Assembly: GCF_003688725.1 (NCBI RefSeq)
Contig: NZ_REFP01000009.1
Span: 62,001 to 126,000 of the forward strand
From: Thermoactinomyces vulgaris
Lineage (GTDB): Bacteria > Bacillota > Bacilli > Thermoactinomycetales > Thermoactinomycetaceae
Length of the DNA: 64,000 nt
Reading direction: 5' to 3'
Below are positions 3,330 through 50,113 of the stretch, one piece after another; the first letter of the stretch is position 1, and each line of letters starts with the position of its first letter. The position numbers and the translations under genes are program-made. The notes beneath the pieces are model-generated. The model was not told the DNA's origin, did no database searches, and was given only the letters and a program-made list of their open reading frames with translations.

Positions 3330-3385
3330 TTATCCATAGATTATCCACAAAAGCCTGTGGATAACTCACAAAGGCTTGTGGATAA
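3330..3385. promoter_or_regulatory. DnaA-box cluster outside oriC
   Basis: Three perfect 9-mers lie within 45 bases: TTATCCACA at 3341-3349, and TGTGGATAA (the reverse complement) at 3356-3364 and 3377-3385. A one-mismatch box TTATCCATA is at 3330-3338. The two inverted boxes are embedded in a longer direct repeat AARGCYTGTGGATAA with 21-base periodicity. The cluster sits just upstream of the guaB promoter and after the lipase-like gene, about 9 kb from dnaA. Facing copies can also fold into a hairpin that might end the lipase transcript. Confidence 0.75.
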
Positions 3386-21206: not shown

Positions 21207-22565
21207 TTAACCCATATTATTGATTAAATTGTGCAATCCACGCAAAGCGATTTTTCTCTTCTCAATTTTATCGATTTCTTGGCGCTTCCGGCTGTTTTGG
21301 GAATAAGGGGTCATGATTTCTTCCCACGAACTGTAGCCACCATAAGCATCTTCAAACTCAATGTCATCCCGTTTCAAACTGGATGCAGATTCTTCACTTT
21401 CATTCGTTTGAAAAGCGGAAACCGGTTGTTGCGCCTCGATCTTGTCTTCAATCCCGAAGGATTGGACACCGGATGAACCGTTGGGAAAGATGGGGTGCTT
21501 TTCATGGGTGGCGTGTTCTTCTGAAAACAGCATTGACTGGTTTCCTTGTTGTTGATGGTTTTCCGTCAATGATTGGTTTGTTTTTTCCGCAAGTGCTCCC
21601 CGCTTTTTTTGCAATCGGCTTCGCTTTCCCTGGCGGACCCGGCGGCGCGGCGAAAAAGGCTCAAACGGGACGAGTTCGTTTGACGGGTTGTCTTTGCTTT
21701 GTTCATTTGGTTTGAAATAATCCGATGGAAGGTTATTGTCGGACTCCGCATCGAATCCGTTCGAATAAAAATCAGGGAACGAGTCGGAAGAAAACGGGTC
21801 ATCCGAAGTTCCGTACGTTTCCGGCGAAAAAGAGGAACGGTCTGATTGCATCGGCGATTCCTCGGCATCCTGGTTGAATGAATGGATCCACTGATTGTTT
21901 GTCCGTTTTTTGCGAAGTTTTGGTTCCCTTTCCAGAAGCATCTCTTCTTGTTTTTCCTGATCTTCGTCGATAAAAGGCGGATTCCAGGGATCTTCCCCGT
22001 GGTTGCTTGATTCTTCCTCTTCCCCCAACTGAACCCGTTCCAAGTGGTATACCGGATATTCATCCCCTGTTTCCGATGGTTCCTGGAAATTCAACTTTTG
22101 TTTACGGCGCAAAGTTTTTTTGCGTAAAGGGCCGCGATTGGTGAAAAAAGAATAGTGGGGAGGCGCATATTCCACTTTTTGAGCTTCGATGATCTCCATG
22201 TCTTTGGCGCTGGAGCTTTGGTCGGCCTGAGACGATTCATCATAAAAAGAGTCGGTTTGATAAGAAAAATCTTCAACCGGTTTGCTTTGGAATGTATATG
22301 TGTTGGTTTCAAGATGATTAGTATGTAAGGTTTGCTTTTGTACAAAGATTTCCCCGTTTCCATGCGTATCTGTTCGTGAGGAGGGGTCGCTTGATCCGGT
22401 GGATTGCCCGACTGCTTGTTGACTGATTAACGTTGCAATCATCTCGGGTTTCAATTCGATATACAGTGCGTTTTTCCCCTTTTCTTTGAGTGCATCGGCA
22501 GCCGCTTTTCCCGAATTGCCCGTACCGATAAGAATGCAATCGAATTGGGATTCAAATTGTGACAT
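21207..22565 (-). CDS. Unknown protein: Rossmann-like N-terminus fused to a long disordered tail
   Basis: 452 residues, not recognised. The first 45 look like the opening beta-alpha-beta of a dinucleotide-binding fold: FDCILIGTGNSGKAAADALK (a GxGxxGxxxA pattern) then KNALYIE with an acidic end. After about residue 50 the sequence becomes rich in Ser, Glu, Gln, Asn and Asp, with no hydrophobic core or membrane segment and with basic clusters (RKKTLRRKQK, RRRVRQGKRSRLQKKR). A short, more ordered C-terminal helix (KIEKRKIALRGLHNLINNMG) ends the protein. The domain is too short to be a complete oxidoreductase, so a role as scaffold, spore-associated or nucleoid-associated protein is possible but unproven. 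The ATG has GGAGGG eight bases upstream. It lies between rsmG and the actin homologue on the same strand as the latter. Confidence 0.6.
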   Translation of the reverse strand: MSQFESQFDCILIGTGNSGKAAADALKEKGKNALYIELKPEMIATLISQQAVGQSTGSSDPSSRTDTHGNGEIFVQKQTLHTNHLETNTYTFQSKPVEDFSYQTDSFYDESSQADQSSSAKDMEIIEAQKVEYAPPHYSFFTNRGPLRKKTLRRKQKLNFQEPSETGDEYPVYHLERVQLGEEEESSNHGEDPWNPPFIDEDQEKQEEMLLEREPKLRKKRTNNQWIHSFNQDAEESPMQSDRSSFSPETYGTSDDPFSSDSFPDFYSNGFDAESDNNLPSDYFKPNEQSKDNPSNELVPFEPFSPRRRVRQGKRSRLQKKRGALAEKTNQSLTENHQQQGNQSMLFSEEHATHEKHPIFPNGSSGVQSFGIEDKIEAQQPVSAFQTNESEESASSLKRDDIEFEDAYGGYSSWEEIMTPYSQNSRKRQEIDKIEKRKIALRGLHNLINNMG

Positions 22566-22738: not shown

Positions 22739-23929
22739 TTATTTTTTCCCGGATTTCCGATCTTTCTTTTGCTGGGTGTCCCCGAATTTATCAGGAACGT
22801 TAAACTCTTGGTGAATGGAGGCTGCCGCTTCCATCATTTCTTTGGATGATGCGGTGCGCGCTTTGGATTGGGCAAATTTGCACAATCCGAAGCCGTTGGC
22901 AAATTGGGCTTCGATTCCATAGTCTTCGGAGAAGATCAGTTTATCGCCGAAGCGTTCCCGGTAAAATGGTTTGAACGGAATCGAAGCTCCGCCGGTGAGG
23001 ATGATATAAGTGATGTCGTCACCATAATCCAGGCGGTGCCAGACTTCATCCACCAAAGCTTCGCCCACTTCCTTGATCGATTCCTGAACGATGGCACTGA
23101 CATCATATGATTTTCCTTTGAAACTGATTTCGCCGGAACGGACGATCCTAGGCAGGCTCCATAACGGATACTCTTTTCCGTTTCCGTCTTTATCCGCGTT
23201 CCGGGTGAATTCAAGCAAGCGCTTCGTCAGGTTTTGGTAAACGCCCAACATAGCATGGCGGGAGGTGAAGCTTTGGCGTTTGATGATCGTTTCCCCGTGC
23301 AGGGTTTCGATGTCCGAAGTACCAAAGCCCAAATCGTTGATGCTCACTTTTTGGATAAACAAGTCTTCATTGAGCAGTTTTCCTTCGCGGTCCAAGGCGA
23401 TGTGGAACAAGGTTGCCATGGGTTGACTGATAACGAAAAGGTTTTCCTGTTTAATTTCAAACTCGATTTTGCGCCAAGGTAAGTTCCCTTGTTTCACTTC
23501 AAAACTGTGTTTCCCGATGAGACGGCGTTTCAATTCATCTTTGTAATCGATGTAGTTGTCCGTCGGCAGGGCCACCGCAACGACCGGTTCCGTCGATCCT
23601 TGCAGCATGAGGCCGGTGCTGACACGGAACATGATCAAGTATTCTTGTTCCCGGAACCAGGTCGGGCTGAAGAGACGACGTTTGTGTGAATCGAAAAGTT
23701 CGTCATCCCCGGCTTGCTCAATGGCCAGCTTTCCGCAGAACCATTCGCGGTCCCCTTCATGTTCCCGATACATGATGTTATGGGGATCGTTGTTATAGGT
23801 GATTTCTCCCACACGGTTTGGCACAACCATGTTCCGGATGAACATTTTATAAAACTTTCCATTCGCCCGGGTCACAACTTTGGTACCATAGTATCCTTGG
23901 TCATTTCCTATGTATACAGGTACGCTCAT
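22739..23929 (-). CDS. ParM/StbA-family actin-like ATPase encoded on the chromosome
   Basis: A 396-residue protein with the actin/Hsp70-type nucleotide-binding motifs. Phosphate-1 is YIGNDQGYYGTK (6-17), phosphate-2 is NDLGFGTSDIETL (198-210), and the adenosine motif is YIILTGGASIPF (308-319). The C-terminal 40 residues are charged and basic (DTQQKKDRKSGKK). This is the family of plasmid-segregating ParM/Alp actins, which polymerise with ATP and push plasmids bound through ParR at centromere repeats. No plasmid, ParR gene or iteron array is adjacent here. The neighbours are noc, parA and parB, with parS 290 bases upstream. Start ATG with GAGGAGG upstream, own promoter at 23975-24004, own terminator. 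The cellular role is unknown; see findings. Confidence 0.8.
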   Translation of the reverse strand: MSVPVYIGNDQGYYGTKVVTRANGKFYKMFIRNMVVPNRVGEITYNNDPHNIMYREHEGDREWFCGKLAIEQAGDDELFDSHKRRLFSPTWFREQEYLIMFRVSTGLMLQGSTEPVVAVALPTDNYIDYKDELKRRLIGKHSFEVKQGNLPWRKIEFEIKQENLFVISQPMATLFHIALDREGKLLNEDLFIQKVSINDLGFGTSDIETLHGETIIKRQSFTSRHAMLGVYQNLTKRLLEFTRNADKDGNGKEYPLWSLPRIVRSGEISFKGKSYDVSAIVQESIKEVGEALVDEVWHRLDYGDDITYIILTGGASIPFKPFYRERFGDKLIFSEDYGIEAQFANGFGLCKFAQSKARTASSKEMMEAAASIHQEFNVPDKFGDTQQKKDRKSGKK

Positions 23930-23974: not shown

Positions 23975-24004
23975 ATTCTATCAATTGTGAAGGTAAAGGG
24001 TCAA
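23975..24004 (-). promoter_or_regulatory. Predicted sigma-A promoter of the ParM-like gene
   Basis: On the minus strand, TTGACC (24004-23999), an 18-base spacer, and TAGAAT (23980-23975), 45 bases before the ATG. Confidence 0.6.
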
Positions 24005-24220: not shown

Positions 24221-24236
24221 TGTTCCACGTGGAACA
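24221..24236. promoter_or_regulatory. parS site upstream of noc
   Basis: TGTTCCACGTGGAACA is a perfect 16-base palindrome matching the Firmicute parS consensus TGTTNCACGTGNAACA, the centromere bound by ParB/Spo0J. Confidence 0.92.
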
Positions 24237-24349
24237 TGTGAATCTTTTTCTATAATGTTTCGGCAAAGAAGGGGGTTGAACGATCAAAGCGAAAAGGTAT
24301 ATTAGGTGATTCCGTGACCTGAGTTGACCGTAAGGTGGTGTCTGTGTCC

Positions 24350-25180
24350 ATGAGACAGTCTTTCACGAGATTATTCGGTCTGAAAGAGAAAGAACAAGAA
24401 CAAGAGGTTCATCCGGATCAAGTCATGCAGATTCCCGTAAATGAAATTGAACCCAGTCCCTATCAACCCCGCACGATTTTTGATGAGGAACGAATTGATG
24501 AATTGTGCCAAACCATCCGTATGCACGGGGTTATTCAGCCTGTCGTGGTGCGCCGCACCGAACGCTGTTATGAGTTGGTTGCAGGCGAACGCAGATTGCG
24601 TGCGGTAAAAAAATTGGGGCTGGACCGGATTCCTGCAGTGATTCGGGAGATGGATGATCATCAAGCGGCGGCGGCTTCCCTCATTGAAAATTTGCAGCGT
24701 GAGGAATTGACAGCCATTGAAGAAGCACATGCATATCAACGGTTGATGGAGGTTCACCAGTTGACACAGGAAGGCCTCGCGCAAAAGTTGGGAAAAGGGC
24801 AGTCGACCATCGCCAACAAATTGAGGCTTTTGCAGTTGCCGGCCGAAGTGCAGGAAGCATTGCAGAAACGGATGATCACTGAACGTCATGCACGGGCGCT
24901 CCTTCCGTTAAAAGAGGGGTTTTTACAACAACAAGTCCTGGAAGAGATTTTGGCCAAAGGGTGGAATGTAAAGCAAACGGAAGAACGGGTCAAAAAGCTT
25001 CTGGTCAAAGAAACCAATAAACAGCAAGCCAAACGAAAGTCGGTCACGCGTGATTTTCGCATTGCCATGAACACCATCCGCCAATCGGTGGATCTGGTGA
25101 AGAAAACAGGCATGGATGTCATGGTGGATGAGCGGGAACATGAAAATTTTGTTGAAGTGATCATCCGCCTTCCCAAGTGA
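24350..25180 (+). CDS. noc: Nucleoid occlusion protein Noc
   Basis: A 276-residue ParB paralogue that binds its own DNA sites and blocks FtsZ assembly over the nucleoid. The N-terminal amphipathic helix MRQSFTRLFGLKEKEQEQEV is the membrane-targeting segment typical of Noc and absent from ParB. The ParB/Srx-type CTPase part follows (EIEPSPYQPRTIFDEERID, GERRLRAVKKLG, IENLQREELTAIEEA), then the HTH (LTQEGLAQKLGKGQSTIANK). GTG codons at 24335 and 24338 are part of the Shine-Dalgarno AAGGTGGTG; the ATG at 24350 gives the family N-terminus. A parS lies 114 bases upstream. Confidence 0.93.
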   Translation: MRQSFTRLFGLKEKEQEQEVHPDQVMQIPVNEIEPSPYQPRTIFDEERIDELCQTIRMHGVIQPVVVRRTERCYELVAGERRLRAVKKLGLDRIPAVIREMDDHQAAAASLIENLQREELTAIEEAHAYQRLMEVHQLTQEGLAQKLGKGQSTIANKLRLLQLPAEVQEALQKRMITERHARALLPLKEGFLQQQVLEEILAKGWNVKQTEERVKKLLVKETNKQQAKRKSVTRDFRIAMNTIRQSVDLVKKTGMDVMVDEREHENFVEVIIRLPK

Positions 25181-26126: not shown

Positions 26127-26982
26127 AGGTTTGGGACGGGGATTGGGTGCGCTGTTTCAACCGATTGATGTGGAGGACGGGGATGAAACCGTTCATGAAG
26201 CGGAGATTTCCGAGTTGCGCGCCAACCCTTATCAGCCTCGTAAAGAGTTTGATCCCGACTCCCTGCAGGAATTGGCAGAGTCCATTAAGCAACACGGGGT
26301 TGTCCAACCGTTAATCGTAAGAAAAAGCATTCGCGGATATGAAATTGTGGCGGGAGAGCGTCGTTTCCGGGCTGCCCAAGAAGTCGGGCTGGAACGGGTT
26401 CCGGTGGTGGTGCGCGATTTTACCGATGAACAGATGATGGAAATCGCTTTGGTTGAAAATGTTCAGAGGGAGGACTTGAATCCCATTGAGATGGCGCGTG
26501 CCTATCAAAAATTGATGGAGCATTTATCCATCACGCAGGAAGAGTTGGCGGCGCGGGTTGGAAAAAGCCGGCCTCATGTCGCGAATTTCCTTCGTTTGCT
26601 TCAACTGCCGCCGGAGATTCAGGAGGATGTTTCACGTGGAACATTGTCCATGGGGCATGCCCGGGCATTATTGGGGATCAAAGACCGTGATTTAATGAAG
26701 AAACTGGCGGAAAAAGCAAAAAAAGAAAAGCCCAGTGTCCGCCAACTGGAGGAATGGGTGCAGCAATTGAATCAATCCGTTCCGAAAAAGGAAAAGAAAA
26801 AGAAGAAAGCGGCAGATCCTTTTATCAAACAATATGAAAACATGTTACAGCAAGTGTTCAGCACGCCGGTGCGCATTAAACACGGAAAGAAAAAAGGAAA
26901 AATTGAAATCGAATATTATTCCGAACGGGAACTGGAACGTTTAATTGAAATGTTAAACCGGGATCAGGTGATGACGGATTAA
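26113..26982 (+). CDS. parB: Chromosome partitioning protein ParB/Spo0J
   Basis: A 289-residue CTP-dependent DNA clamp that loads at parS and spreads. The conserved N-terminal motif [20 protein letters not shown], the CTP-binding [13 protein letters not shown] and [16 protein letters not shown], and the [23 protein letters not shown] are all present, with a basic linker and a C-terminal dimerisation domain. It starts with ATG inside parA. A second parS is embedded in its coding sequence (26628-26643), as in B. subtilis spo0J. Confidence 0.96.
26628..26643. promoter_or_regulatory. parS site inside parB
   Basis: TGTTTCACGTGGAACA matches the parS consensus. It lies within the coding sequence at the position corresponding to a helix after the HTH. 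Confidence 0.9.
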
Positions 26983-49420: not shown

Positions 49421-49444
49421 CGTTTTCGAAAATATATAACATGT

Positions 49445-49453
49445 TTCGACAAA
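49445..49453 (-). promoter_or_regulatory. Spo0A-like box upstream of the tandem-RHH gene
   Basis: TTCGACAAA, reverse complement TTTGTCGAA, matches the Spo0A box core TGNCGAA. It lies 10 bases upstream of a putative -35 element. Confidence 0.45.
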
Positions 49454-49462
49454 GTCTTCCCG

Positions 49463-49492
49463 TTGACGTTCTTGTATAACACCTGTTACCAT
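49463..49492 (+). promoter_or_regulatory. Possible promoter of the tandem-RHH gene
   Basis: TTGACG (49463-49468), an 18-base spacer, TACCAT (49487-49492), 54 bases before the ATG. Confidence 0.4.
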
Positions 49493-49546: not shown

Positions 49547-50113
49547 ATGTCTTCCATTACGGTTGGCGTATATCTGGGGAAAAAGGACCGGTTGGTTCGT
49601 TATTGGTACGAAATTTTGCCGAAAGGCCAATTCCCGATGTTGGTCAAATACTGCATCCAGTCTTATCTGAGAAACAACTATTTCCCGTTGCAATCCATTT
49701 GTGATGCAAGACAGTTGAAAGAGCAAATCCAAAAAAGAAGCGAGTATGTTCCCACCCAGCGGAATGTCACGTTCACCCCGGAAGACGGTCCGGTTTATCA
49801 ATGGATCAAAGGGCTGGAAAGCGGTTACCGCAGTGAGGAAATCAAAAACATTTTGAAGGAAACGGTGGTTCACACATTGCTGAATGAACAACCGCAATAT
49901 CCGCAACGTATGATGGGACAAGTCCCTTACGGCGGCATGGAGGCCCATGAAGCCCAAGGCATGTACCGCCCTTATCCGGACGACACGCAAAAATTGACCC
50001 TGCTCAAACGGGAACAGATCGCGATGGAAGAACCGTACCCGACCGAAGGGGATGCAGAGGGGAAGGATAAAGCCACCAAAGGATTCAGCCATTTGGTCAA
50101 CTATCTGGGATGA
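49547..50113 (+). CDS. Putative tandem ribbon-helix-helix DNA-binding protein (ParR-like)
   Basis: 188 residues with no confidently recognised family. Two segments each show the strand-helix-helix pattern of RHH regulators. The first is 4-42: strand ITVGVYLGKKD, then RLVRYWYEIL and FPMLVKYCIQSYLR. The second is 72-112: strand RNVTFTPED, then GPVYQWIKGL and SGYRSEEIKNILKETVV. The second, with its RSEEIKxxL turn, is close to plasmid ParR/CopG-type domains. The tail from 113 is polar and proline/tyrosine-rich and ends FSHLVNYLG. AT-rich upstream DNA holds a Spo0A-like box, and a terminator follows. RBS GGAGGTG. It could be a DNA-binding partner of the actin homologue at 22739-23929, but this is inference. 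Confidence 0.55.
   Translation: MSSITVGVYLGKKDRLVRYWYEILPKGQFPMLVKYCIQSYLRNNYFPLQSICDARQLKEQIQKRSEYVPTQRNVTFTPEDGPVYQWIKGLESGYRSEEIKNILKETVVHTLLNEQPQYPQRMMGQVPYGGMEAHEAQGMYRPYPDDTQKLTLLKREQIAMEEPYPTEGDAEGKDKATKGFSHLVNYLG

Follow-up and report, generated by a model that had tools for sequence, protein, structure and literature searches.

Near the replication origin, the chromosomes of the Thermoactinomycetales probably carry a fixed ParM-ParR machine whose genes are split, which has a second filament ligand and which may be tied to sporulation. What we observe is conservation, co-occurrence, a tail shared by two of the proteins, homology to ParR and promoter boxes. The three genes concerned all lie in the window, that is, the whole stretch of 64,000 nucleotides that was analysed (Table 1), and encode an actin-like protein (ALP), a partner protein and a ParR-like protein, the last two of which were missed in the preliminary description.

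Table 1. Position of the features discussed in the text, within the window
Feature	Position	Strand	Remarks
dnaA	12780-14135		
Nine exact DnaA boxes beside dnaA	14174-14506		likely oriC
Partner protein	21207..22565	-	452 aa; start similar to MnmG, middle long and variable, C-terminal tail conserved
Partner tail	21210..21377	-	last 56 residues; presumed filament-docking motif, common to the ParR-like protein
ALP, ParM-class actin-like protein	22739..23929	-	complete ORF, ATG to stop, 396 aa
Sigma-A-like promoter of ALP	23975..24004	-	TTGACC-18-TAGAAT
Perfect parS-type palindrome	24221-24236		
noc	24335-25180		NCBIfam nucleoid_noc, 7e-107
Conserved block TTTCGAAAATATATAACA	49424..49441	+	candidate ParR operator or centromere
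Perfect Spo0A box TTCGACA	49445..49451	+	ahead of the promoter in the next row
Promoter of the ParR-like gene	49463..49492	+	conserved, TTGACG-18 bases-TACCAT; hexamers by eye
ParR-like protein	49547..50113	+	188 aa; near-invariant core (residues 1 to ~112), variable linker and tail
Tail of the ParR-like protein	50003..50110	+	joint tail profile

Judged by its sequence, ALP is a ParM-class actin-like protein encoded by a real and intact gene, as had been proposed. It passes the curated Pfam cut-offs for ALP_N (E 2e-10) and MreB-like_C (E 7.7e-7), and its residues 6-357 match PHROG 691, a 'partition protein' (E 4e-34), but it stays under the cut-off of Alp7A_like_C (14.3 bits for 22 needed) and far under those of the NCBIfam models for ParM (45 of 417 bits) and PRTRC_D (55 of 215 bits). 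The original label of ParM/StbA type is therefore kept for its first half only, StbA_N (PF06406) being absent among the matches of ALP at E≤1. The actin-fold nucleotide motifs that had been read at residues 6-17, 198-210 and 308-319 are present, and all of their residues stand in columns that an alignment of 19 rows shows to be invariant or nearly so. Matches to PDB sequences are weak, be it S. aureus ParM (3js6, E 0.006) or Dh-cParM1 (8x1i, phmmer E 0.019), the latter denoting distant kinship only, and the profile built from the 19 rows finds none at E 0.1. An AlphaFold model, for which these near-identical rows were the input, has a mean pLDDT of 44.9 and is unreliable. In f2 genomes, the ALP frame ends a few residues before the end of the match (one TGA in each). 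The same T. vulgaris genome encodes a second actin-like ORF of 264 aa outside the window (L047:6915-7709, minus strand; contig C3, ~133 kb; ALP_N 1.6e-29), flanked by lysine-5,6-aminomutase-like genes on one side and a 4Fe-4S oxidoreductase on the other, both identified by eye.

Conservation in related genomes, which was checked, is order-wide. ALP is found in 22 of the 23 genomes of its own family and in 38/42 genomes of the order, at 77-91% identity and across five families, which amounts to 38 of the 40 genomes that are at least 90% complete. Genera among its holders (18 loci) are Thermoactinomyces, Laceyella, Hazenella, Polycladospora, Paenactinomyces and Shimazuella, together with Lihuaxuella, Seinonella, Croceifilum, Thermoflavimicrobium and Baia. 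It was not found in two incomplete genomes (G005 and G025, 68% and 67% complete) and is missing from G040 and G041, both 100% complete and both of the sister family f6. Relatives outside the order are distant: four matches at E 1e-10 in a class sample of 398 genomes (24-27% identity), eight at E 1e-18 in a phylum sample of 398 genomes, the own genome not counted (27-30%), and 209 plasmid records that are all below 60% identity, the 30 listed being at 22-26%. The nearest plasmid relative by E-value is an Alkaliphilus ParM (1e-17), none of the matches listed outside the order exceeds 30% identity, and a search of viral_contigs with exact peptide seeds, whose reach is close relatives, found none. 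Some genomes carry extra, distant ParM-like genes (G003, contigs C19, ~90 kb, and C44, ~125 kb; G032, contig C5, ~132 kb; 22-28% identity) with short ORFs behind them that resemble ParR by eye; these are ordinary plasmid-type cassettes.

At 38 loci, the mean pairwise identity of ALP (83.6%) is the highest of eight block proteins compared, ahead of MnmG (81.3%), YchF (79.9%, 18 loci only), ParA (77.1%), MnmE (72.4%), ParB (68.4%), Noc (66.9%, the 'noc' of locus L046 being a match on parB and not a true noc) and RsmG (58.2%). ALP is more identical than MnmG in 487/666 pairs, and its identities climb with those of MnmG (Spearman 0.70), a pattern as in vertical descent. In L046, which belongs to a divergent family member (G010), ALP is 77% identical to that of the window, though MnmG is at just 63%. 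Rough dN/dS values of ALP are 0.025-0.030 in three comparisons, with dS of 1.7-2.8 and some not computable; synonymous sites are thus saturated and the ratio is useful for ranking only. Together, these figures indicate that ALP is under strong purifying selection.

The gene order mnmE-mnmG-rsmG-partner-ALP-noc-parA-parB, with partner and ALP on the minus strand, occurs in 36 of 38 loci (the window plus 37 from relatives), and the stretch from partner to parB in 37/38 (36/37 relatives). In L063 the contig stops before rsmG, and in L046 ALP lies behind rsmG but not beside noc, no noc being seen next to it. The neighbours are thus as first claimed, although rsmG, parA and parB in the window are named from sequence and order and not by profile. 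In both f6 genomes, noc follows rsmG after ~160-195 bases with nothing in between. The ORF list of the window has no mobile genes adjoining ALP, in keeping with the earlier remark that plasmid genes are not nearby; far from being confined to one strain with plasmid or phage neighbours, the gene is chromosomal and order-wide. Its own promoter is borne out, since a regular expression for it matches upstream of 35/38 orthologues, but the terminator that had been assigned to it is not, the four terminator-like sites found being all on the plus strand. The perfect parS does exist, and one lies between rsmG and noc in 35/38 loci with ALP, but it is also there in both genomes without ALP; parS therefore goes with noc, and its closeness was rejected as evidence for a role of ALP. 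A second perfect parS-type site lies inside parB (26628-26643). As for the origin, ALP is ~8 kb from the DnaA-box cluster of the window, and in four single-contig genomes it lies 10-12 kb from the contig end (dnaA at the record start was confirmed in two of them, G017 and G037); in these four, two of the three genes are within 40 kb of oriC. Three more DnaA boxes were seen at 3341-3385.

The gene adjoining ALP encodes not a ParR but a partner with an MnmG-like start. Its ORF is directly downstream of ALP on the same strand at every locus, varies between 227 and 871 aa in the 38 compared, and in 37 of them ends in the strict C-terminal motif E[KR]RKxALRGLxxLIxxxG. The exception is L046, where the partner ends in ...AERELSNLINSLG and is without the MnmG-like start. 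The first 50-60 residues of partners resemble the start of MnmG (at best 55% identity across 58 residues, E 2e-15), a likeness that extends over roughly the first 60-97 residues only and thus falls short of a full-length FAD enzyme. In the f2 locus L061, NCBIfam MnmG (TIGR00136) comes first (1.8e-5, positions 1-94 of 616) and the next family at 0.003. On the MnmG profile, 21/38 partners are above the inclusion line, the window's own copy scores 0.0024, and those below the line are too far diverged. With such a start, and mnmG two genes away, the partner gene probably arose when part of mnmG was copied; alternatively, the diverged copies may descend from another FAD protein.

The ParR-like gene, 26 kb from ALP, was found first via a search with the partner tail, which hit a protein with a similar tail in G037 (E 0.008). 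Orthologues are present in 40/42 genomes of the order at E≤0.1 (38/40 well-assembled ones), and the protein is absent from the same two good genomes as ALP (G040 and G041). No stretch seen is more constant than its core, with ~96-99% identity when genera within one family are compared. The protein matched no family in Pfam (RHH included), NCBIfam, PHROG or PDB, has no relative in plasmids at E≤1 and one alone in phages, in a cyanophage (E 0.5); none was found in viral_contigs by exact peptide seeds, which reach close relatives. By eye, it may hold two ribbon-helix-helix units, and the fold of a single-sequence AlphaFold model is unreadable (mean pLDDT 47). A profile of the core was run against the 262 ORFs of 14 loci that surround distant ParMs of plasmids, phages and chromosomes, and its top five were all directly downstream of a ParM: in an Alkaliphilus plasmid (E 1.9e-5), three chromosomal loci (0.009, 0.009 and 0.023) and a Ruminococcus plasmid (0.031). 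BLASTP against the ParR of the nearest plasmid ParM gave 3e-6 in one comparison, and hhalign against plasmid ParRs was weak (55.9% and 2.7% probability). We take the protein for a ParR that is no longer encoded beside its ParM, and its co-occurrence with ALP supports the earlier idea of filament-based DNA positioning beside ParABS. Lihuaxuella (G008) has three further ParR-like copies with equal scores on contigs C14, C31 and C38, as open frames of 159 aa that are 62-66% identical to the queries; a mobile element may carry such a gene.

The partner and ParR-like proteins share a C-terminal tail with the consensus LK-[RK]-[DE]...E-[DE]-P-Y..., followed by a short amphipathic end, L-[VI]-N-x-[LM]-G. 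The link holds both ways. Used as a query at E≤0.1, the ParR-like protein picks up the tail of the partner in 19/42 genomes. Conversely, when 871 frames of the window are ranked by a profile of 37 partner tails, the ParR-like ORF comes second to the partner itself, at an E of 0.2 only, and the same profile takes 9/30 ParR-like proteins past the inclusion line (best 5e-7; the own copy is twice in this set). With a joint tail profile, the own genome yields two proteins and G040 and G041 none, and the ParR-like tail is recovered in 6/11 genomes with the system, several of these six having supplied rows to the profile. The tail motif ends 27 of the 30 ParR-like copies (the three exceptions are all f3), and in part of the order the tail is degenerate or undetected. 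Short hydrophobic ends, e.g. SFGV, also occur in the ParRs from the plasmid and chromosomal loci of the core-profile test. ParR tails bind ParM filaments. The genome of T. vulgaris thus holds a ParR homologue with a C-terminal tail, and by analogy this tail and that of the partner would bind ALP.

The ParR-like gene may be under developmental control. In 29/30 upstream regions, TTCGACA lies 8-10 bases before TTG[AC]C, and its complement, TGTCGAA, has been published as the core of Spo0A boxes (PMC3485338, PMC10782996). This 7-mer is rare in the window (3 found, 12 expected), and of the three copies one is upstream of the ParR-like gene and another just behind it. Upstream of ALP there is a box in all ten f3 genomes, which are related by descent and cannot be counted as ten separate events, and none in 28/38 loci. 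The boxes give the suggested tie to sporulation indirect support; the ALP loci without a box count against it, and Spo0A controls much besides sporulation (PMC3485338). The conserved block next to the box has one copy per genome at 0-1 mismatches in nine genomes, further copies at 2 mismatches being no more numerous there than in a backward-read control. No parC-like repeats were seen at ALP or the ParR-like gene (gene region and tandem repeats of the window), parS alone stood out among 11-mers common to the 38 ALP loci, and no dispersed candidate centromere sites were seen.

In the mechanism that we infer – which involves polymerisation, DNA binding, contact between tails and filament, and a role in sporulation – ALP would form nucleotide-driven filaments, while the ParR-like protein would bind DNA via its near-invariant core, most likely at its own upstream region ~35 kb from oriC, and dock on the filament by its C-terminal tail, as plasmid ParR does. 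The partner carries a tail of this kind too, borne on a long disordered arm; it would therefore be expected to bind where the ParR-like protein does on the filament, either tethering the filament to some other element or controlling its ends. The Spo0A boxes suggest that the DNA-linking half, i.e. the ParR-like protein, is switched on or off when sporulation starts, and the filaments would then hold or move the origin-proximal region while the prespore chromosome is placed. In Bacillus, it is RacA that places the prespore chromosome. Holding or moving the origin-proximal chromosome, perhaps in sporulation, is thus the most likely work of the system. As for its history, the ParM-ParR pair is probably of plasmid or phage origin and, in our reading, entered the chromosome after the split from f6 or was lost in f6; it would then have become a core system to which the second ligand was added. 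What counts against a split ParM-ParR is that the gene adjoining ALP is not a ParR and that the ParR-like gene is 26 kb off, and we know of no ParMR cassette with its ParR gene that far away.

The chief rival, which we regard as unlikely but worth keeping in sight, is a general cytoskeletal role, in which ALP would be a domesticated ParM acting e.g. in hyphal growth or polarity, with the partner as the main scaffold and the ParR-like protein mainly as a regulator of transcription or filament length. It would fit with the partner being the ALP-linked gene and having the more constant of the two tails (strict motif in 37/38), with the decay of the ParR-like tail in some genomes, with the repeated DNA sites that were not found, and with the named holders of ALP being mostly filamentous genera (Thermoactinomyces mirandus, for instance, is described as forming a mycelium). 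However, the most constant stretch of all is the ParR-like core, as expected of a DNA-binding or dimer core, and Spo0A boxes suit development better than growth. Moreover, Shimazuella soli, reported to be without mycelium (PMC11810901), has ALP (L084), which speaks against a strict link to mycelium, so that the tie to mycelial growth evoked in the preliminary description is weak and now leans on the largely filamentous habit of the order.

The two other alternatives bring the system back to mobile DNA. The chromosomal pair might act in trans, keeping resident plasmids or interfering with incoming ParMRC plasmids, and the nearest relatives of ALP outside the order are indeed, among the matches listed, plasmid, phage and chromosomal ParMs (~22-30% identity). 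This is improbable in view of the universal vertical pattern at one locus and the strong constraint, and the authors who raise the same idea for their own chromosomal systems also doubt it (PMC12270681). Least credible, to the point that we hardly entertain it, is that a partition cassette of plasmid or phage origin was inserted recently: the absence of ALP from f6, with rsmG next to noc, does mean that it was inserted or lost at some point, but presence in five families at 77-91% identity and in one gene order contradicts a recent event, as do the mobile genes lacking next to ALP in the window and the relatives lacking in viral_contigs (at the reach of exact peptide seeds).

Plasmid ParMRC is a cassette with an adjacent ParR and a repeated parC. 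The pSK41-type systems and that of Alkaliphilus pB6464 resemble ours in the homology of ALP over most of its length (~25% identity), in the C-terminal tails and, for the ParR downstream in pB6464, in the core homology of the ParR-like protein, but here the genes are split and repeats were not found. RacA of Bacillus subtilis, a Spo0A-linked DNA-binding protein that acts near the origin and has no known actin-like partner, is a model for how the system might work, and no homology is claimed. AlpC-AlpA of the Corynebacterium prophage CGP3 is described as a chromosomally located actin-like protein with a DNA-binding adapter for viral DNA; that is a prophage system, whereas ALP is a core gene of an order. 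Closest are the cParMs, Dh-cParM1 in Desulfitobacterium and Cb-cParM in Clostridium, which are chromosomal, strongly conserved and found where ParABS is also present (PMC12270681). ALP shares these three properties, but it is near-universal in an order, while conservation of cParMs was shown within genera; its ParR-like gene is 26 kb away, while cParR lies up- or downstream of cParM (PMC12270681); and it has a second tail-bearing protein linked to it and a Spo0A box at the ParR-like promoter. Thermoactinomyc- is not mentioned in the main text of that 2025 paper (PMC12270681), no paper joining ParM, chromosomal, actin-like and Thermoactinomyc- was found in a search with subscription papers largely outside its reach, and among the matches listed for the names of the family, ParM does not occur in the parts of the sources covered. 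Against the background of the cParMs, this is a variant of chromosomal ParM, not a new kind of system.

In conclusion, the fullest version of our reading – an actin-filament positioning machine that works beside ParABS in the whole order bar one family, with two alternative tail-bearing ligands for a single filament, one that binds DNA and one derived from part of a tRNA-modification enzyme, and that has been recruited by Spo0A to place the origin in sporulation – is offered tentatively, as a whole that has somewhat less than an even chance of being right. This conserved case lets the question be put directly, since there are three named genes, a tail to mutate and a promoter box to break, and sister genomes without the system are available for comparison. 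It would also show how a chromosome can adopt a plasmid machine as part of its core, with a second ligand made out of a piece of the mnmG gene nearby.
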